Positions 2,274 through 14,020 of a DNA stretch of 14,020 bases are shown piece by piece. The position numbers and the translations under genes were made by a program. The first letter of the stretch is position 1; every line of letters begins with the position of its first letter. This DNA comes from Actinomycetes bacterium (GTDB lineage Bacteria > Actinomycetota > Acidimicrobiia > Acidimicrobiales > Palsa-688). The stretch is from positions 1 through 14,020 of the forward strand of contig JAKAXG010000040.1 in assembly GCA_021827225.1 (NCBI GenBank), read 5' to 3'. The notes below the pieces were generated by a model, which had not been told where the DNA came from, ran no database searches, and saw nothing but the letters and a program-made list of their open reading frames with translations.

Positions 2274-3449
2274 TCAGAAGTCGTCGCTGGCCGGAAGCCC
2301 CACGTAGTTCTCGGCGAAGGTCATCTCCGCCGCCTCCGAGCGGTCCACGTAGTCGAGGCGGGCCAACTGCAGCTGCTTCATGTACGGCCCCTCGCCCAGC
2401 TGGTGGAGCAGCGTGGTCATGTAGTTGGAGAAGTCCTGCGCCCTCCACACCCGCCGCAACGCCGTCTCCGTGTAGCGGCCCAGGCGGTCCCGGCTGCCGT
2501 TGCCGTACCAGTCGATCAGCCCGGCGGCGAGCAGCCGGACGTCGTTCACCGCCAGGTTGAGCCCCTTGGCCCCGGTCGGCGGGACGATGTGGGCAGCGTC
2601 CCCGGCCAGGAAGAGCCGGCCGTGCTGCATCGGCTCGCACACGTAACTGCGCATGGGGGTGACACCTTTTTCCAGCACCGGCCCCTCGTTCAGCTTCCAC
2701 CCGTCGAGAGCCATCCGCACCTGGAGCTCCTCCCAGATACGGTCGTCGGGCCAGTCGGCGATGTCCTCACCGGCCGGCACCTGCAGGTACAACCGGCTGA
2801 TCCGGCTCGACCGCATGGAGTGCAGGGCGAAGCCCCGGTCGTGCCAGGCATATATCAGCTCGTCGCTCGACGGTTCGGCCTCGGCCAGGATCCCGAGCCA
2901 GTCGAAGGGGTAGCGGAGATCGAACTCGGTGCGCGACCCGGACGGGAGATACCGCCGGCTCACCCCGTGGAACCCGTCGCAGCCGGCGATGAAGTCGCAC
3001 TCGAGGGTGCGGAGCCCGCCCTCCTCGGCGAAGCTGATCCGGGGCCGGTCCGAGTCGACGTCGTGCAGGGCCACGTCGGCAATCTCGAATCGCACATCCA
3101 CGCCCCGCTCCAGCGCGGCCCCGATCAGGTCCTTCACCACCTCCTGCTGGCCGTAGATGGTCAGGTGGCGACCGGTCAGCCGCTCGATATCCACGTGCTT
3201 GGTGCGACCGGGCCGGCGCAGGTACACCCCGGTGTGGTGCATGCCCTCGCGGGCCAGGCGCTCCCCGGCCCCGATCTGGTGGAGCAGATCCACGGTGTTG
3301 TGCTCGAGCAGGCCGGCCCTCACCCGGCTCTCCACGTAGCGGCGGGACCGGGCCTCGAGCACCACCGATTCGACGCCGGCCCGCTGGAGCAGGAGCGACA
3401 GCACCAGACCGGCCGGACCGGCCCCCACTATCCCGACCCTGGTGCGCAC
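2274..3449 (-). CDS. pobA: 4-hydroxybenzoate 3-monooxygenase (p-hydroxybenzoate hydroxylase)
   Basis: FAD monooxygenase that hydroxylates 4-hydroxybenzoate to protocatechuate, feeding the pca genes beside it. I chose the GTG at 3449 (391 aa): a perfect AGGAGG lies 8 nt upstream, and numbering from it aligns without gaps to the N-terminus of the Pseudomonas fluorescens enzyme as I recall it. Seen: dinucleotide motif GAGPAG (9-14), the 32-46 segment ending RVRAG, the DG motif (CDGFHG, Asp158-Gly159), and the GDAAHIVPPTGAKGLNLAVND block beginning at Gly283. Counterparts of the known active-site residues are present: Tyr200 (Tyr201), Ser211 and Arg213 (Ser212, Arg214), Arg219, Tyr221, and Tyr382 in NYVGLP (Tyr385). 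Position 33 is Ala rather than the Arg that helps bind the NADPH 2'-phosphate, so NADH use is possible (inference). It is convergent with pcaDC. An upstream in-frame ATG at 3491 has no usable ribosome site. Confidence 0.95.
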   Translation of the reverse strand: MRTRVGIVGAGPAGLVLSLLLQRAGVESVVLEARSRRYVESRVRAGLLEHNTVDLLHQIGAGERLAREGMHHTGVYLRRPGRTKHVDIERLTGRHLTIYGQQEVVKDLIGAALERGVDVRFEIADVALHDVDSDRPRISFAEEGGLRTLECDFIAGCDGFHGVSRRYLPSGSRTEFDLRYPFDWLGILAEAEPSSDELIYAWHDRGFALHSMRSSRISRLYLQVPAGEDIADWPDDRIWEELQVRMALDGWKLNEGPVLEKGVTPMRSYVCEPMQHGRLFLAGDAAHIVPPTGAKGLNLAVNDVRLLAAGLIDWYGNGSRDRLGRYTETALRRVWRAQDFSNYMTTLLHQLGEGPYMKQLQLARLDYVDRSEAAEMTFAENYVGLPASDDF

Positions 3450-3457
3450 TGCTCCGG

Positions 3458-3463
3458 CCTCCT
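3458..3463 (-). promoter_or_regulatory. Ribosome binding site deciding the pobA start
   Basis: On the minus strand this is AGGAGG, 8 nt before the GTG at 3449. It favours that GTG over the ATG at 3491 and over other in-frame starts, and the resulting N-terminus (VRTRVGIVGAG) matches the family start. Confidence 0.85.
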
Positions 3464-3560
3464 CTCCGTCGATCGGTCCCACCATATCCACCGCCGGGCC
3501 GGACCCCGCCCCTCGCCGTCGTCAGCGGAGGCTGCGGATCAGGCGGGCCAGGTCCTACAG

Positions 3561-3601
3561 CAGAAGAGCCCCATCGGCGAGGATCGGGACACAAGAGCCC
3601 C
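3561..3601. repeat. Imperfect direct repeat upstream of pobA
   Basis: CAGAAGAGCCCC (3561-3572) and CACAAGAGCCCC (3590-3601) match at 11 of 12 positions and start 29 bp apart. They lie 112-152 bp upstream of the pobA GTG in a stretch with no gene. They could be operator half-sites for a pobA regulator (IclR-type regulators of pob/pca genes use repeated sites), but no regulator gene is in the window and a chance origin is possible. Confidence 0.3.
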
Positions 3602-3639
3602 AGAACCCCCCAACGTCGCGGTCCGCCCTTCTGACGCCT

Positions 3640-3678
3640 GCCGGCGACCGGCCGTTCTCACAGCCCGGCTAGTGCCGG
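3640..3678 (-). terminator. Possible weak terminator region after the tandem CsrA gene
   Basis: Two small GC hairpins lie just past the csrA-like stop (minus strand): CCGGC/GCCGG with a 4-nt loop (3665-3678) and GCCGG/CCGGC with a 3-nt loop (3640-3652). Neither has a T-tract. This would be the end of the HTH/CsrA transcript; the call is tentative. Confidence 0.22.
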
Positions 3679-3686
3679 TTGCCCGG

Positions 3687-4052
3687 TCAGGTCAGGACGA
3701 TTTGTGCGCCCGCCTCCTCCGGCAGTCGGGCCACGACCAGGTCCCTCGGTGCGTCTATGCCGAGACGGATCGTGTTGCCGGTGCCCGGCAGGACGCTGAC
3801 CCGGACCGAATTGCCGATCAGCAGATCGGGTGGCGTTCGGGTTGACACGACTCTCCGCCGGCCCGCTCCCCATCTCCCTCCCTGGGAGTGGACCTCCCGG
3901 TACAGCCGTGCCTCGGCGGACGTCCACACCATCAACTCGGTCGGACAGTCGACCGACAGGCAGGTGTCACCCTCGACCACGGCGTCGAGGGTGATTGTGA
4001 TGTCATCCCCTATGCGGATGCTGGATCCCGGCCGGCACTTGATTACGAGCAC
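3687..4052 (-). CDS. Tandem CsrA-like protein (two CsrA domains in one chain)
   Basis: A 121-residue protein that reads as two consecutive CsrA (carbon storage regulator, RNA-binding translational repressor) domains. Residues 1-45 align without gaps to E. coli CsrA from residue 1: MLVIKCRPGSSIRIGDD at the start, with Arg7, Gly9, Gly15-Asp16, Pro37 and Val42 matching. However, Arg6 is Cys, Arg31 is Cys and Arg44 is Thr. Residues about 68-117 form a second, better preserved copy (IGNSVRVSVL, then TIRLGIDAPRDLVVAR), with Arg96 and Arg109 standing for Arg31 and Arg44. The linker (46-67) is basic. The GTG at 4052 is chosen because GAGG lies 8 nt upstream and because it gives the family N-terminus; a GTG at 4073 has its GGAGG abutting it. 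It probably forms a single-chain pseudo-dimer. It follows the HTH gene by 52 bp. Local composition at 3961-4080 is 72/120 G+C, low for this window. Confidence 0.72.
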   Translation of the reverse strand: MLVIKCRPGSSIRIGDDITITLDAVVEGDTCLSVDCPTELMVWTSAEARLYREVHSQGGRWGAGRRRVVSTRTPPDLLIGNSVRVSVLPGTGNTIRLGIDAPRDLVVARLPEEAGAQIVLT

Positions 4053-4065
4053 ATCCGTTACCTCG
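4046..4065 (-). promoter_or_regulatory. Candidate CsrA-type binding hairpin over the start codon of the tandem CsrA gene
   Basis: On the minus strand, CGAG (4065-4062) can pair with CTCG (4049-4046), leaving a 12-nt loop that contains GTAACGGATGT and the GTG start. The loop resembles the CsrA SELEX consensus RUACARGGAUGU with one base missing, and has the key GGA in the loop. The GAGG ribosome site is partly in the stem. If real, the protein would repress its own translation. The stem is only 4 bp, so this is a hypothesis. Confidence 0.3.
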
Positions 4066-4104
4066 GTATGCACCTCCCTGTTGCGTTAATAGGGACTTTT
4101 GGAG

Positions 4105-4491
4105 CTACCCGCCGTCAGGGCGTGAGTGCTCGCCGGCGGCAGAGTAAATCCGGGCGGCCCGTTGGCGGGAGACGCCGAGCATGCGGGCCGCCTCGGTCAG
4201 GCTCATCCCCTCCTCATCGACCAGATGGCGGATCAGCTCGGCCCGCAGGGCGAGAGAAGAGCTCTCGTATCTCTGCATCGCCTGACCGGCGGCCAGCCGC
4301 CGGTCGCGCATGCCGTCGGCCGTCATCCGGCGGACGACAAGATTCACCGGGGAACCCGAGCGGGCGTAGTCCCGGGTGCGCGCCACGACTCCAGCCAGCT
4401 CGGCGATCGCCTCTGCGGCCTCCTTGGCCGCCGTTTCGACCGTGTCGAGAGCCGCTTCCAACCAGCCGTCGGAGATCCCGCTTTCGGGCAT
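4105..4491 (-). CDS. Small helix-turn-helix protein, function unknown
   Basis: A 128-residue soluble protein. The N-terminal third (about 10-40) is an Ala/Glu-rich amphipathic helix that may mediate oligomerization. The C-terminal part (about 82-119) contains a convincing helix-turn-helix: LIRHLVDEEGMSLTEAARML followed by GVSRQRAARIY, with the typical Ala in helix 1, Gly in the turn and a basic recognition helix. I do not recognise the family beyond that; it could be a transcriptional regulator or a resolvase-type HTH fragment. The start is firm: AGGAGG lies 7 nt before the ATG at 4491. It is transcribed toward the tandem CsrA gene 52 bp downstream, so the two may form a regulatory pair, and it is divergent from the DedA gene. 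Confidence 0.75.
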   Translation of the reverse strand: MPESGISDGWLEAALDTVETAAKEAAEAIAELAGVVARTRDYARSGSPVNLVVRRMTADGMRDRRLAAGQAMQRYESSSLALRAELIRHLVDEEGMSLTEAARMLGVSRQRAARIYSAAGEHSRPDGG

Positions 4492-4498
4492 ACCCGAG

Positions 4499-4504
4499 CC
4501 TCCT
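4499..4504 (-). promoter_or_regulatory. Ribosome binding site of the HTH gene
   Basis: AGGAGG on the minus strand, 7 nt before the ATG at 4491. It fixes the start of the HTH protein. Confidence 0.8.
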
Positions 4505-4530
4505 GAACCCGTAGATCCGCTTCAGAACGA

Positions 4531-4598
4531 AGGCGGCGTACCGCCTGTGGCCAGACGTCCACCGCCCGTCTCCGTGGGGACCTACCCACGCTGGTGGG
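4531..4598 (+). promoter_or_regulatory. Hairpin-rich leader between divergent HTH and DedA genes
   Basis: Three GC hairpins are packed here. AGGCGG-CGTA-CCGCCT spans 4531-4546. CGTGGG (4573-4578) can pair with CCCACG (4585-4590). CCCAC (4585-4589) can instead pair with GTGGG (4594-4598), which is followed by six A residues. The last two pairings exclude each other, an arrangement seen in attenuators and riboswitches. No known riboswitch class was recognised and no clear promoter boxes were found in the 244-bp divergent gap. Confidence 0.25.
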
Positions 4599-4735
4599 AA
4601 AAAAGGCCCTCTTTGCACCGATGGTGACTGTTCCGGGGACACCCAGTGACCTTGGCCCCTTCGCCGCCGGGCAGGCGGCGACCTTCAATGGGAGGGCTGA
4701 TACCGCCTTCGGCAGGAGGAGGTCGGGCGTTCGCG

Positions 4736-5398
4736 GTGATCCGGCTCGAGTCCATAGACCTCTCGAGCCCGGTGGCGTTCCTGGTCATCTGCGGGCTCGC
4801 TCTCGTTGACGGGGTGTTCCCACTCGTCCCGGCACGCACCGCCATCATCGCCGTCGGGGTGCTGGCCGGGACCGGCGACCTGCGGGCCTACCCGCTGCTG
4901 GCGGCGGCCACCGCGGCGGCGTTCGTCAGCGACAACATCTCGTACTGGATCGGTGCGCACTACTGGTCCCGCATCTCCCCGAGGCTGTTCCGGGGAGAGC
5001 GGACCCGGCGGGTCTGGGGCTGGGTGGAGGTCCAGCTGCACCGGCGGGGCTTCGCCCTGGTGGCCCTGGCCCGGGTGGTACCGGGCGGTCCGACACCGAT
5101 CACCCTCACCGCCGGCATGGTGGGTATCCCCAGAAGGCAGTTCCGGCTGGCCGCGGCGTGCAGCGCCGTGCTGTGGTCGGCCTACGCCTTCTCGGTCGGG
5201 CTGTTCGGCGACGCCGTCACCGGCGGTGACCCCTTGCTGGGGCTGGTGGCCGCCCTGCTCGCCGGCGGAGCCGTCAACCTGGTCGTGAGGGCCTGGATGC
5301 GCCGCCGGGGCGCCGGCGCCTGTGGGCCGCCGCCCCCTAAGGGACGGGACGGAACCGGTGCTCCCGCGGCCGGGCGGAAGACCGGGGCCGGACCGTGA
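4736..5398 (+). CDS. DedA-family (SNARE-associated/VTT domain) membrane protein
   Basis: Integral membrane protein of the DedA family; characterised members work as phospholipid flippases or scramblases or affect proton-motive force and envelope stress. Seen: a hydrophobic segment at about 12-32, PLVPARTAIIAVG (29-41), SDNISYWIG (65-73), the family hallmark ALARVVPGGPTPITLTAG (110-127), further hydrophobic stretches at 138-160 and 165-185, and a Pro/Gly/basic tail. The usual acidic residue in the PSE-type motif is Arg34 here, whereas Asp66 is kept. The GTG at 4736 gives a normal family length (220 aa); an AGGAGGAGG lies 13 nt upstream, which is long, so ATG 4688 or GTG 4646 remain possible. 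The stop overlaps the MFS start (GTGA). Substrate unknown. Confidence 0.85.
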   Translation: MIRLESIDLSSPVAFLVICGLALVDGVFPLVPARTAIIAVGVLAGTGDLRAYPLLAAATAAAFVSDNISYWIGAHYWSRISPRLFRGERTRRVWGWVEVQLHRRGFALVALARVVPGGPTPITLTAGMVGIPRRQFRLAAACSAVLWSAYAFSVGLFGDAVTGGDPLLGLVAALLAGGAVNLVVRAWMRRRGAGACGPPPPKGRDGTGAPAAGRKTGAGP

Positions 5399-6681
5399 CC
5401 CCCGGCACCCCCGGCACCCCCGGCGCCCCCGGCCCGCAGACCCGGACCGGCCTGGTCCGGGCGGTCACCTACCCGCTGCGCCTGGGGGAGGTGGGAGAGG
5501 ACTGGCGCTCCACCAGGTTCGGACGCCTGGCTCTGGTCAACGTCCTGTCGTCGGCCGGCGACGCCCTGGTGGTGGTGGCCCTGGCCGGGTCGGTGTTCGT
5601 GAGCGTGCCGCTGACCGCGGCCCGGGGCAGGACGGCGCTCGGGCTGGTGTGCACCCTGCTGCCGTTCGCGGTGGTTGCGCCGCTCATCGGCCCGGCCGCG
5701 GACCGGACCAGGAGGGGCAAGCGCTTCGTGATGTTCCTGGCCGCGGTGGGCCGCACCGCGGCGGCGGTGATGATGGCGGCCTGGCTGCACAGCCTGCTGC
5801 TCTTCCCGGCGGCGTTCCTGAGCCTGGTCTGCTCCAAGACCCACGGCGTGGCCCGCTCCTCGCTGGTGCCGGGCTCCATGGACGGTCACCTGAACCTGGT
5901 CCGGGCCAACTCCCGCCTGGCCGTGGGGGCCGGCGTGTCCTCCGCGGTGGCGGCGGCCGCCGGCGGCGCCGTCTACGCCGTGTTCGGTTCCCGGCCGGTG
6001 CTCCAGATCGACGCGTTCGTCTTCGCCGTGACCGCGGCGACGGCCATCCTGGTGCCCCGCCCGGTCGAGCCGGAGCCGGGCCCGGAGCCGGCGACCGCTC
6101 CGGGAGCGCCGGATCCGGCCCGCCCCCGCCTCGGCCTGAGCCGGCCGGCGCTGACCGTGACCGCCCTGCGGGGCGCCACCGGGTTTCTGACCGCGCTGAT
6201 CGCCTTCGGCTTCCGGGCGCAGTCCACCCCGGTCGTCTGGTACGGCGTGGCCGCGGCCGCCGGCCTGGCCGGCAGCCTGGCCGGGTCGGCGCTGGCCCCG
6301 GCCGCCCGGCGGCTGGTGCGCTCGGACGGGTGGCTGGTGGCCGTGCCGGCCTTGGCGGTGGCCGTGGCCGCGGCCCTGGTGATCCTGCTCGGCTCCGGCC
6401 AGCACCGCCTCGGCGCGGCGGCGCTGGCGGCGTCGGCCGGGCTGGGGGGATCCGTGGCCAAGACCGCCTTCGATTCCCTCGTCCAGTCGTCTGTCACCGA
6501 GAGGCGCCGGGCCCAGGCGTTCGCCCGCTTCGAGGCCCAGTTCCAGGGGGCGTGGGTGGTGGCCGCGCTGGTACCCACGCTCATCGCCGTGCCCCTGACC
6601 GCCGGCTTTGCCATCGTCGGGGTCGCGGTGGCCGTGGCCGGCGCCGGCCTGGCCGCCCGCCTGGTGCGGTCCCGGGGATGA
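5395..6681 (+). CDS. MFS transporter
   Basis: A 428-residue multispanning protein of the major facilitator superfamily. It has a cytoplasmic N-terminus, repeated hydrophobic helices from about residue 45 onward, and the loop 2-3 motif-A-like segment GPAADRTRRGKRFV after the second helix. A Pro/Glu/Ala-rich central loop (VEPEPGPEPATAPGAPDPA) separates the two halves. The GTG start overlaps the DedA stop and lacks a Shine-Dalgarno sequence, so translation is probably coupled. The first residues after the start are Pro-Gly tripeptides encoded by a 9-bp tandem repeat. Substrate cannot be told from sequence; many such actinobacterial carriers are drug or metabolite exporters. A strong stem-loop follows the stop at once. 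Confidence 0.85.
   Translation: MTPGTPGTPGAPGPQTRTGLVRAVTYPLRLGEVGEDWRSTRFGRLALVNVLSSAGDALVVVALAGSVFVSVPLTAARGRTALGLVCTLLPFAVVAPLIGPAADRTRRGKRFVMFLAAVGRTAAAVMMAAWLHSLLLFPAAFLSLVCSKTHGVARSSLVPGSMDGHLNLVRANSRLAVGAGVSSAVAAAAGGAVYAVFGSRPVLQIDAFVFAVTAATAILVPRPVEPEPGPEPATAPGAPDPARPRLGLSRPALTVTALRGATGFLTALIAFGFRAQSTPVVWYGVAAAAGLAGSLAGSALAPAARRLVRSDGWLVAVPALAVAVAAALVILLGSGQHRLGAAALAASAGLGGSVAKTAFDSLVQSSVTERRRAQAFARFEAQFQGAWVVAALVPTLIAVPLTAGFAIVGVAVAVAGAGLAARLVRSRG
5401..5436 (+). repeat. 9-bp tandem repeat encoding Pro-Gly-X units
   Basis: Two identical copies of CCCGGCACC (5401-5418) are followed by CCCGGCGCC (5419-5427) and a decayed CCCGGCCCG (5428-5436). In frame it encodes PGT-PGT-PGA-PGP at the N-terminus of the MFS protein. 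Likely a slippage product; copy number may vary between strains. Confidence 0.7.
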
Positions 6682-8228: not shown

Positions 8229-8283
8229 GATAAGCAGGAGCCGCTGGAATAGGGGCGACCGCCGACCGGTTGTCTACCTACAG

Positions 8284-9381: not shown

Positions 9382-10291
9382 CCGCCGCCTTCTCGTCCGG
9401 TGCCCTCAGGCTGAGGAGCGTGGCGGCAGCGACGATGGCGGCCAGCACGGCCAGGCTGAGCAGGTCCGGAACGTGGACGAACGGCTCCAGCAGCATCTTC
9501 GCCCCGATGAAGACGAGTATCACGGCCAGCCCCTGCCTGAGGTACCTGAGCCGTTCCAGGGCCCCGGCCAGGACGAAATACAGCGATCGCAGGCCGAGCA
9601 CCGCGAAGGCGTTGGACGTGAACACCACGAACGCGTCCCGGGTGACGCCGAACACGGCAGGGATGGAGTCGGCGGCGAAGACGATGTCGCTGGTCTCCAC
9701 GGCCACCAGGGCGAGCAGCAGGGGAGTGGCCACGAGCGTCCCCCGCCGCACGAAGAACCGGTCGCCCTCGTAGCCCTCGGTGACGGGGATGACCCGGCGG
9801 GCGAACCTCAGCGCCGCGCTGCGCCCGGGGTCCGGCTGTTCCCTGCTCAGGGCCATGTGGATCCCGGCTGCGAGCACCACGGCGCCCAGGACGTAGAGCG
9901 TCCAGCTGAGCCGGTCGAGCAGGGCCGCTCCACCCGAGATGAACACTGCCCGAAGGACCAGGGCGCCCACCACCCCGAAGTACAGGACCCGCCGCCGATG
10001 GGGTTCGGGCACGGCGAGGGCCTCGAAGAGCAGGGCGAACACGAAGACGTTGTCCAGGCTCAGGGACTTCTCCAGCAGGTAGGCCGTGAAGTACTGCTCC
10101 GTCACGGCCCCGCCGTGGAAGGCCCCGTAGACCGCCCCGAAGCCCAGGCCGACGCCGATCCACAGCCCGGTGGCCACCGCCGCCCGGGCCATGGTCAGCT
10201 GACGGCCCCGGCCGTTGACCCGCAGATCGACGACCAGCAGCACGGCGATCAGAGCCGTCGCCGCGGCCCAGGACCACAGGGAGCCGCTCAC
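9296..10291 (-). CDS. TerC/Alx-family integral membrane protein
   Basis: A 331-residue polytopic membrane protein of the TerC family; characterised relatives (Alx, MntP-like MeeY/MeeF) export Mn2+ or help metallate exported enzymes. Seen: EKSLSLDNVFVF (74-85) and VETSDIVFAADSIPAVF (198-214), the two acidic metal-site helices, plus FTSNAFAVLGLRSLYF (224-239). About eight or nine hydrophobic segments are visible, and an Ala/Thr-rich tail follows residue 298. The GTG start overlaps the stop of the short F0 b gene (GTGA), so it is the third gene of the atpB-atpF' operon. The 3' end overlaps the deacetylase gene by 86 bp. No yybP-ykoY riboswitch was seen, and its position inside an operon leaves no room for one. 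Confidence 0.92.
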   Translation of the reverse strand: MSGSLWSWAAATALIAVLLVVDLRVNGRGRQLTMARAAVATGLWIGVGLGFGAVYGAFHGGAVTEQYFTAYLLEKSLSLDNVFVFALLFEALAVPEPHRRRVLYFGVVGALVLRAVFISGGAALLDRLSWTLYVLGAVVLAAGIHMALSREQPDPGRSAALRFARRVIPVTEGYEGDRFFVRRGTLVATPLLLALVAVETSDIVFAADSIPAVFGVTRDAFVVFTSNAFAVLGLRSLYFVLAGALERLRYLRQGLAVILVFIGAKMLLEPFVHVPDLLSLAVLAAIVAAATLLSLRAPDEKAAVRNATAPGTRARPEAAAAATTPDWRCTG

Positions 10292-10602
10292 GACGGGGAC
10301 CGCACCGCCGAGGGGTGGGACCGGCGGGCCCGGTCCTCGGCCATCCGGTCGGCGGTCTCGATGATGGCCCTGGCCTCCCTCCTGGCCTCGGACAGGGTCT
10401 TCTGGTAGTCGGCCTCGGCCGCGGCCAAGAGGTCCTCCACCCTGCGGGCCTTGGCCAGGGACTCGTCGATCTCCGCCTGGCGGCGGCGCATGGCGGCCTG
10501 CAGCGGTCTGATCACGAAGCGGGTGACCACGAGCAGGACGATGACAAAGACCCCCATCTCCACCGCGAAAGTCGAGTTGAGGGCAAAGAAGTCAGCGGTC
10601 AT
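10288..10602 (-). CDS. atpF: F0F1 ATP synthase subunit b, short form
   Basis: A 104-residue protein: one N-terminal membrane helix (about 13-30, VEMGVFVIVLLVVTRFVIRP) followed by a charged helix with the RRQAEIDESLAKARRVEDLLAAAEADY pattern typical of the F0 b stator. Normal b subunits are about 155-190 residues; here the distal dimerization and delta-binding part is missing and the chain ends in a non-helical Ser/Pro/Arg tail. The start is firm: AGGAGG (10612-10617) lies 9 nt before the ATG, inside the end of atpB, and the ATG overlaps the atpB stop (ATGA). No atpE lies between a and b, and no atpH, A, G, D or C follows; terC does. As built it probably cannot reach the top of a standard F1. 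Confidence 0.78.
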   Translation of the reverse strand: MTADFFALNSTFAVEMGVFVIVLLVVTRFVIRPLQAAMRRRQAEIDESLAKARRVEDLLAAAEADYQKTLSEARREARAIIETADRMAEDRARRSHPSAVRSPS

Positions 10603-11321
10603 CGGACGGTTCCTCCTGGTTCATCTTCGGGGGCGAGGGCGGAATCGAAGTACAGAACGGTGAGCAGCGAGAAGAGGAACGCCTGCATGACCGCCACCAG
10701 GACCGAGAAGAGCTTCCAGGCCAGCAGGGGCAGCGGGGTGAGCGTGGGCGGGATCAACTCGAAGATCAGCACCACCATCACGGTGCCGGCGAAGACGTTG
10801 CCGAACAGCCGCAGGGCGAGCGTCACCGGCTTCGCCAGCTCCTCCAGGATCCGCAGCGGCAGCATCCACGGCGCCGGCTCCAGGTAGTGGCGTAGGTAGC
10901 CCCGCCAGCCCCTGGCCCGCACCGCCGTGGCGTGCACGGCGAGTATGCAGAACACCGCCAGGGATGCGGTCAGGTTCAGGTCGCCGGTAGGCGCCGGAAG
11001 CGCCTTCTGGGGATGGCCGCTCGGCACCGTCTCGAGCAGGGTGGCGACGAGGATGAACACGAACAGCACGACCGCCAGGGGGATCACCCGACGGCCGGCC
11101 GGGCCCAGCCGGTCGCCCACGTGACGCTCGGCGGCCGAGATCACCGACTCCCAGGCGAGCTGCATCCGGGTGGGCCGTCGCGCCGACAGGTTGCGGCGGG
11201 CCACGAGGCCGAGGGCGATCACGATCAGGCCGGCCGCCACCGTCGCCACGATGGTGTCGACGTTGAACTGGAACCCGCCGATGCCTACCGTTCCGGCGGT
11301 TGCGAGAATTGCGGTGGTCAC
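10599..11321 (-). CDS. atpB: F0F1 ATP synthase subunit a
   Basis: A 240-residue membrane protein carrying the proton half-channels of F0. Seen: GFQFNVDTIVAT near the N-terminus, then PTGDLNLTASLAVF (111-124), the hallmark EELAKPVTLALRLFGNVFAG (160-179) containing the essential Arg171 and Asn175, and WKLFSVLVAVMQAFLFSLLTVLYF (202-225) with Gln213, the counterpart of E. coli Gln252. The E. coli Glu219 position is Thr180. All core features for rotation are there, so it is not a decayed copy. GTG start with GGAG close upstream. The genomic setting is odd: the next gene is a short b, with no c subunit and no F1 genes, and a two-component system lies upstream. It may be a second, partial F0 set beside a complete operon elsewhere. 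Confidence 0.88.
   Translation of the reverse strand: MTTAILATAGTVGIGGFQFNVDTIVATVAAGLIVIALGLVARRNLSARRPTRMQLAWESVISAAERHVGDRLGPAGRRVIPLAVVLFVFILVATLLETVPSGHPQKALPAPTGDLNLTASLAVFCILAVHATAVRARGWRGYLRHYLEPAPWMLPLRILEELAKPVTLALRLFGNVFAGTVMVVLIFELIPPTLTPLPLLAWKLFSVLVAVMQAFLFSLLTVLYFDSALAPEDEPGGTVR
10612..10617 (-). promoter_or_regulatory. Ribosome binding site of the short atpF
   Basis: AGGAGG on the minus strand, 9 nt before the ATG at 10602 and within the last codons of atpB. It shows that the b-like gene is independently initiated and translated despite its short length. Confidence 0.8.
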
Positions 11322-13657: not shown

Positions 13658-14020
13658 GTGTCCACATACCACTGCCCGCTCTGCCCGCTCATCTTCGAGT
13701 ACCGCACCGAGGTGGAGTGGCACCTCCGCGAGGAGCACCGTTCCCGCCTCGATGAGGAGGCCGACCTGCGCGCCGAGGTGGCCGCGGCGGCCCGGCCTCT
13801 GGACCGGGAGCGGCTGCAGGCCCTGAGGGCCGGCGGCTCCCGACCCTCCATCTCCCTGCTGCTGGCCACCGCCCCGGCCGAGGCCATGACCGTGCTCGAC
13901 GTGGCCCGGCTGCGGCAACTGGCCGATCGGGCCCGCCGGCGCCTGGCCCGCGAGCGTGAGCGCCACAACTCCATAGGGGTGATAGAGCACCGGCTGGCCC
14001 GGGCGGTCTCGGCGGCTGAG
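13658..14020 (+). CDS. C2H2 zinc-finger protein with possible baeRF/eRF1-like region, 3'-truncated by window edge
   Basis: 121 residues are visible; the frame runs open to the last base. The GTG start has AGGAGG (13648-13653) 4 nt upstream. Residues 4-27 form a clean C-X2-C-X12-H-X4-H zinc finger (Cys6, Cys9, His22, His27), with Phe13 and Trp21 in core positions, a layout typical of eukaryotic C2H2 fingers and uncommon in bacteria. A charged helical stretch follows (28-58). Then RPSISLLLATAP (62-73) and LDVARLRQLADRARRRL (80-96) resemble the opening of bacterial eRF1/Vms1-like (baeRF) proteins, which typically begin with a P-x-V-S-hydrophobic strand and then an R-L-K/R-x-L helix. That second assignment is a recollected similarity, not a tested one. 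It is divergent from the response regulator. Confidence 0.7.
   Translation, partial: MSTYHCPLCPLIFEYRTEVEWHLREEHRSRLDEEADLRAEVAAAARPLDRERLQALRAGGSRPSISLLLATAPAEAMTVLDVARLRQLADRARRRLARERERHNSIGVIEHRLARAVSAAE

Follow-up and report, generated by a model that had tools for sequence, protein, structure and literature searches.

We describe a natural protein in which two CsrA domains are read in a single chain of 121 residues. It is encoded in a 14,020-nucleotide stretch of DNA (positions 1 to 14,020 of contig JAKAXG010000040.1, from a bacterium placed in the Acidimicrobiales; hereafter, the window). With somewhat better than even confidence, we propose that this chain is a single-chain CsrA pseudo-dimer with two unlike RNA faces: an open-end face that is most likely RNA-binding and a crossover face that has probably been recruited elsewhere.

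The CsrA family is described as homodimers with subunits of 65-75 residues on average (PMC7366521). Its Pfam profile, PF02599, matches the window protein in two stretches (57.5 bits, E 1.3e-15, cut-off 27), and each half also matches by itself, the C half at 36.7 bits (E 4.1e-9) and the N half at 24.3 bits (E 3e-5), slightly below the curated cut-off of 27. A sequence-only reading of this DNA had proposed two CsrA domains in one chain and had named separate profile searches of the halves, structure prediction of the monomer and a phylogeny of both halves as ways to check it; the profile searches bear the proposal out. The NCBIfam equivalogs fall below their cut-offs (NF002469, 52.5 against 73 bits; TIGR00202, 39.1 against 70.1 bits), which makes this a CsrA-domain protein and not a standard CsrA. 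It further departs from canonical CsrA in having R44 in the C half only, with T44 in the N half of all five sequences considered here, and in holding two domains in 121 residues rather than being a 65-75-residue chain.

Those five sequences are the window protein and four homologues, P0001 to P0004. A search of 5.8 billion proteins gave three homologues at 98, 84 and 72% identity, and a profile search gave a fourth at 57%; all four are tandem and 121-128 residues long. By sequence, the five make up a real family (the window family, n = 5). Two scans of GTDB genomes (28 and 172 pattern stretches) confirmed no relative, each scan using two short patterns that divergent members may escape. Among the matches listed, neither the plasmid collection, in two scans, nor the phage collection had a record covering 80% of the query at a single place. 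Five plasmid records from a third scan were rejected, each matching in two pieces within 222-264 bases, that is, single csrA genes.

The open frame runs uninterrupted on the minus strand from a GTG start at 4052 to the stop at 3687, in agreement with the coordinates first assigned to it (Table 1). A longer alternative begins at a GTG at 4073, which GGGAG directly abuts; homologues P0001, P0002 and P0004 begin at the MLV position, and P0003 has 128 residues. The gene is short, as a chance frame, a frameshift or an assembly artefact might be, and a promoter and terminator scan of 3400-4750 found no match, an uninformative result given chance expectations of 0.0 and 0.4. We give an artefact practically no credence, as the frame is unbroken, its Pfam match is strong and the existence of four likewise tandem homologues, 57-98% identical, already refutes it. 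An Rfam scan of the window at gathering scores found no match. Autocontrol by CsrA through a GGAUGUG over the start codon was considered and rejected: the GGA lies in a predicted stem, and the fold has a z of 0.49, with 139 of 200 shuffles as good.

Table 1. Features of the tandem CsrA gene and of the genes around it (window coordinates)
Feature	Position	Strand	Remarks
Tandem CsrA gene	3687..4052	minus	121 aa, GTG start; Pfam match, plus four homologues that are likewise tandem
N half, CsrA residues 1-44	3921..4052	minus	K5, C6, C31, C36 and T44 invariant in 5/5
Helix (45-55) and low-confidence linker (56-66) between the halves	3855..3920	minus	predicted model
Residues 65-80, RRRVVSTRTPPDLLIG, beta1 and beta2 of the C half	3813..3860	minus	14/16 positions invariant in five sequences
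C half, residues 67-110	3723..3854	minus	R96 (=R31), R103 (=R38), R109 (=R44)
Shine-Dalgarno-like GAGG	4061..4064	minus	8 nt before the GTG; read from the sequence
Helix-turn-helix protein, 128 aa	4105..4491	minus	PF13384 26.2 bits, cut-off 24.6; 52 nt upstream of the tandem CsrA gene
pobA, 4-hydroxybenzoate 3-monooxygenase	2274..3491	minus	NF006091 562.8 bits, cut-off 351; 195 nt downstream of the tandem CsrA gene
Fused alpha/beta hydrolase / carboxymuconolactone decarboxylase	1131-2249	plus	converges with pobA, gap 21 nt

The canonical dimer indicates how the faces of such a chain would be composed. Each RNA face is formed by beta1 of one chain and beta5 of the other (PMC7652899), and every sheet of the RsmA orthologues is ordered beta5A-beta2B-beta3B-beta4B-beta1A (PMC3791407). 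Because the faces pair beta1 with the beta5 of the other unit, a tandem would have an open-end face made of beta1 of the N half and beta4/beta5 of the C half, and a crossover face made of beta1 of the C half and beta4/beta5 of the N half. As the chain runs from beta5 of the N half through helix and linker to beta1 of the C half, the crossover face would carry the join. In RsmN, RNA sits against a basic surface of Arg9, Arg49, Arg56 and Arg62, which have equivalents in RsmE; RsmN Arg8 and Glu64 are joined by a salt bridge, and in RsmA, where both residues are conserved, this bridge connects the two subunits (PMC3791407). Using the offset from Arg62 = Arg44, we took the first four as R7, R31, R38 and R44, and Arg8 and Glu64 as R6 and E46.

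For comparison we used 139 single-domain proteins of 55-80 residues among a set of 229, which came from CsrA searches and were also the basis of the hidden Markov model (HMM); where a site fell beyond the local HMM alignment, its residue was read by extending the alignment without gaps. R6, A36, R44 and E46 are each present in 139/139 of these proteins and R31 in 138/139. At the open-end face of the window family, R31 and R44 are kept in 5/5, R7 in 4/5 (H in P0003) and R38 in 4/5 (S in P0004). At the crossover face R7 is kept in 5/5, and R31, R38 and R44 are all lost in 5/5 (C31, T38 or A38, and T44). R6 and E46 are gone from both faces in all five proteins, C6 standing with P46 or L46 and T6 or S6 with A46; this loss fits covalent linkage, which would make an inter-subunit salt bridge dispensable. 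The residues named in the sequence-only reading are as it gave them (N half, R7 kept, C6 for R6 and T44 for R44; C half, R72 equivalent to R7 and R109 to R44). Its treatment of R6 as a key RNA residue is not upheld, as R6 probably makes no RNA contact, judging from the salt bridge reported for RsmN and RsmA (PMC3791407).

The crossover face has lost its basic residues and yet contains the most conserved stretch of the family. Residues 65-80, RRRVVS(T/S)RTPPDLLIG, form beta1-beta2 of the C half, that is, the crossover strand, and the excess of invariant positions there (14/16 against 44/105 elsewhere; Fisher p 0.0008) comes from five sequences and a block picked after seeing the data. In the linker, at residues 56-64, 2/9 positions are invariant. 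This conservation suggests that the crossover face has probably been rebuilt as a second face rather than left dead. The earlier expectation of a pseudo-dimer with one good and one weakened site therefore stands in part: the predicted fold and the residue table agree with a covalent pseudo-dimer that has one canonical-looking and one altered site, but 'weakened' is too simple for a face whose strand is the most conserved.

The same conservation could mean that the CsrA fold has departed from RNA regulation, so that the RRRVVS-RTPPD face and C6, C31 and C36 serve a protein, metal or redox ligand and the RNA site is vestigial. The three N-half cysteines, invariant in 5/5, replace the R6, R31 and A36 of single-domain CsrAs, and CsrA faces can bind proteins, CesT contacting R31, K38 and R44 (PMC5864733). 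We nonetheless regard a complete departure from RNA as unlikely, since all five proteins retain R31 and R44 on the open-end face, which would be improbable under drift.

An AlphaFold2 model of the chain (pLDDT 78.5, pTM 0.71) has ten predicted strands, beta1-5 and a helix in the N half and beta1'-5' without a terminal helix in the C half; this later model was compared through VIA. In an earlier, weaker model, residues 6-62 superpose on 1vpz_A at 0.9 A over 57 residues. Foldseek with that model placed RsmF and RsmN in the top two rows (E 0.13 and 0.19; prob 0.97) and returned nothing at E<=0.001. The 1vpz match was tied with an unrelated fold, which slightly lowers our confidence. The open-end face is not fully canonical, because in its strand L4 has become I or V and T5 has become K.

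From the sequence, the predicted strands and the precedent of the engineered protein Re-CsrA, we infer that the halves fold together as the subunits of a CsrA dimer do. In the mechanism that we propose, they would pair within the chain. The open-end face, built from the chain's two ends with basic residues at R7, R31, R38 and R44, would most likely bind one GGA-type RNA element. The crossover face, without R31, R38 and R44 and with a conserved RRRVVS-R-TPPD strand, would probably be recruited for another RNA or a protein partner. With one face alone binding GGA-type RNA, the targets would be those with a single site, and two sites would not be bridged as they are by a CsrA dimer.

Pairing between chains would instead give swapped dimers or higher oligomers, and thus a multivalent CsrA. 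CsrA does dimerise by a beta1/beta5 swap between chains (PMC3791407), which a tandem chain could do between molecules, and model confidence is low in the linker. We think such oligomers rather improbable. A ten-residue linker is enough in Re-CsrA, and here 22 residues (helix and linker) separate T44 from beta1'. In addition, the near-linkerless tandems P0065, P0131, P0134 and the viral L019 seem, by eye, to merge beta5 of the N half with beta1 of the C half, which suits an intramolecular join.

Tandem CsrAs also occur in several other groups. A profile of six tandems gave 7,770 matches at E<=0.001 among 7,996 candidates scored, of which the best 120 were inspected. Two CsrA domains of more than 8 bits each are present in 25 of 229 proteins (228 and the window's), a count that does not give a frequency, since the searches were biased towards tandems. 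Apart from the window family, these include a clostridial group (P0005, P0121 from Gracilibacteraceae, P0123, and P0124 from Peptococcaceae), a group of five (P0133, P0144, P0152, P0172 and P0186), and P0096/P0122/P0125, P0126/P0127, P0128, P0129, P0131/P0134, P0065 and P0023. R44 is present in the C half of all 25 and in the N half of 10, so that 10/25 have it in both halves, 15/25 lack it in the N half alone and 0/25 lack it in the C half alone, counts to be read with the search profile's preference for C-half R44 in mind. In the short tandems P0131, P0134, P0065 and P0023, middle residues were partly counted in both halves, and P0125 is without beta1. The halves of P0126 and P0127 are 61-70% identical, cluster together (100/99) and have R44 in both, which looks like a recent internal duplication. 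Ordinary CsrAs among the matches carried the names Nocardioides, Xylanimonas, Patulibacter, Acidimicrobiales and Solirubrobacterales.

Trees of both halves were built from 46 columns; they drew on 19 tandems out of the 25 and on 30 single-domain proteins out of the 139, and were built again without six long-branch proteins (P0065, P0023, P0128, P0129, P0131 and P0134). They are poorly resolved and do not place the halves. In the first tree the window N half groups, on a long branch, with the clostridial tandem N halves (95/81, 98/94); in the second it no longer does. No alternative is rejected by approximately unbiased (AU) tests (p 0.33, 0.23 and 0.39), so the data fit both a common tandem ancestor with the clostridial group and an internal duplication in the window family, without showing either. 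For the N halves, starred branches imply at least four label changes in the first tree and three in the second, which on these few columns suggests several origins of tandem CsrA.

Such recurrence allows a wider proposal, which we hold tentatively: fusion frees the two RNA faces to diverge from each other. The open-end face would go on binding GGA; the crossover face would have disappeared in the P0133 group and the remaining one-site tandems, and in the window family it would have been remade as a new and strongly conserved ligand site, so that the protein would work as a two-input RNA-plus-X adaptor.

Viral-classed contigs carry tandems as well. Seven of 111 scanned IMG/VR loci (L013-L019 among L010-L120) have eight tandem open reading frames (ORFs), two of them in L018. 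The loci came from scans with the queries A7 (3 loci), A6 (best 80 of 132) and A8 (31 loci, some shared), and some are the same contig. All the tandem ORFs stem from the A6 scan, and none of the 111 loci yielded one for the clostridial or P0131/P0134 group. Among L013-L017, pairwise nonsynonymous divergence (dN) is 0.04-0.25 for residues 1-36 and 0.08-0.48 from residue 71 on; for the middle, residues 37-70, it is 0.55-0.82 in 7/10 pairs and 0.06-0.12 in the other 3. The crossover part thus evolves fast in these viral tandems, the opposite of the window family. L018 carries two neighbouring degenerate tandem ORFs (4758-5444 and 5941-6348), and L019 (5001-5345) a 114-residue tandem whose first-half beta5 and second-half beta1 appear, by eye, to be one strand. 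PHROGs searches with seven L014 proteins gave no match for five and matches to families of unknown function or 'kinase' for two, leaving phage hallmark genes beside the viral tandems unconfirmed. Among other viral candidates, L001-L004 looked tandem from matches spanning 3-125 with query A1, but L003 holds a single-domain 61-residue CsrA ORF and the L001 record one CsrA match, and L005-L007 are single-domain CsrAs.

The base composition of the gene had been taken as a sign of transfer. The 60% G+C given for 3961-4080 is correct (72/120), and the whole gene has 66.1% against 72.8% for the window; its third-position G+C (GC3), 0.80, is the lowest of 16 window genes. Transfer is unsupported by these figures: the thioredoxin gene at 8270 is lower overall (64.6%), the adjacent helix-turn-helix gene has the next lowest GC3 (0.84), and the 78% stretch used for comparison is an extreme. 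An ordinary csrA acquired from a donor of lower G+C and later duplicated would explain the GC3, and we judge it very improbable given the thioredoxin gene. The window protein's halves are, moreover, just 20% identical, so any duplication or fusion must be old, and the trees do not place them. An actinobacterial-type host, as first suggested, is weakly favoured by TerC, whose 11 best matches listed in the plasmid collection are all from Actinomycetota (46.4-50.5%), and by PobA, whose best match in the same collection is Nonomuraea at 60.3%, followed by Azospirillum at 56.6%. The ATP synthase a subunit is no help, its 12 listed matches being all non-actinobacterial (28-33%), with few such genes on plasmids.

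The helix-turn-helix gene, on the same strand and 52 nt away, is a possible operon partner of the tandem CsrA gene. On the other side, the hydrolase/decarboxylase fusion, which we take to be PcaL-like, an adjoining lyase, presumably PcaB-like, and pobA look like a 4-hydroxybenzoate/protocatechuate catabolic cluster; from this neighbourhood, a role of the tandem CsrA in aromatic catabolism is possible. No FliW, the partner in the CsrA-FliW switch, was found among the 15 window proteins scanned with Pfam. Elsewhere in the window, 10288-11321 (minus strand) encodes an ATP synthase a subunit, a 104-residue b-subunit piece (2-81 of 132 of PF00430) and terC, which overlaps by 4 bases, with no c-subunit gene between a and b. 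At 13658-14020 (plus strand), a frame that exits the window encodes the start of a protein with MSTYHCPLCPLIFEYRTEVEWHLREEH, which by eye resembles a C2H2 finger and is unusual in bacteria.

In the titles and abstract openings of the open-licence literature searched, no natural tandem CsrA is reported, and Re-CsrA, which is engineered, is the one such chain. Re-CsrA joins CsrA 1-44, a ten-residue linker and CsrA 1-61; it was crystallised with CesT, binds RNA, behaves as a dimer, and has one CesT partner site removed, CesT being bound through one site (PMC5864733). It is probably the CsrA of PDB 5Z38, going by title and chain names. Like the window protein, it is a chain of about the same length with two CsrA units, the first leading through a short linker into the second. 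Re-CsrA was made by joining two copies of the E. coli sequence, with the native RNA residues retained up to position 44; the window protein occurs naturally, and its divergent halves give two different faces. Like the CsrA/RsmA/RsmE homodimer (PF02599), the window protein has the same domain twice and R7, R31, R38 and R44 on one face; the homodimer consists of two separate identical chains with two identical sites, whereas here one chain has unequal faces and no R6-E46 bridges. RsmN/RsmF of Pseudomonas aeruginosa (4KJI, 4KRW, 4K59) differs as well: RsmN is a single-domain protein that remains dimeric although a helix interrupts it between beta2 and beta3 (PMC3791407), whereas in our model the helix is predicted after beta5 of the N half. 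The double histone fold (PMC13088155) follows the same idea, a dimer fused to a single-chain pseudo-dimer, in an unrelated fold and function. Crocagin peptide-binding proteins were set aside as CsrA relatives, the source saying of CsrA that crocagin inhibits it and no more (PMC10070186). Judged by its sequence, then, what appears new beyond the engineered Re-CsrA is a natural single-chain double CsrA with two unlike faces.

Natural fusions recur in other bacteria and on viral-classed contigs, which argues that the two RNA grips of the pair can evolve apart. Proteins annotated as ordinary carbon storage regulators, such as P0121 of Gracilibacteraceae and P0124 of Peptococcaceae, can differ in architecture. 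One-site and two-site roles of CsrA, such as bridging two GGA motifs, have been probed with R44A in one or both chains of the dimer (PMC7652899). The canonical dimer is symmetric, and natural chains with one face retained in cis and the other lost or rebuilt make the need for two sites testable with evolved proteins and would be a source of one-site reagents.
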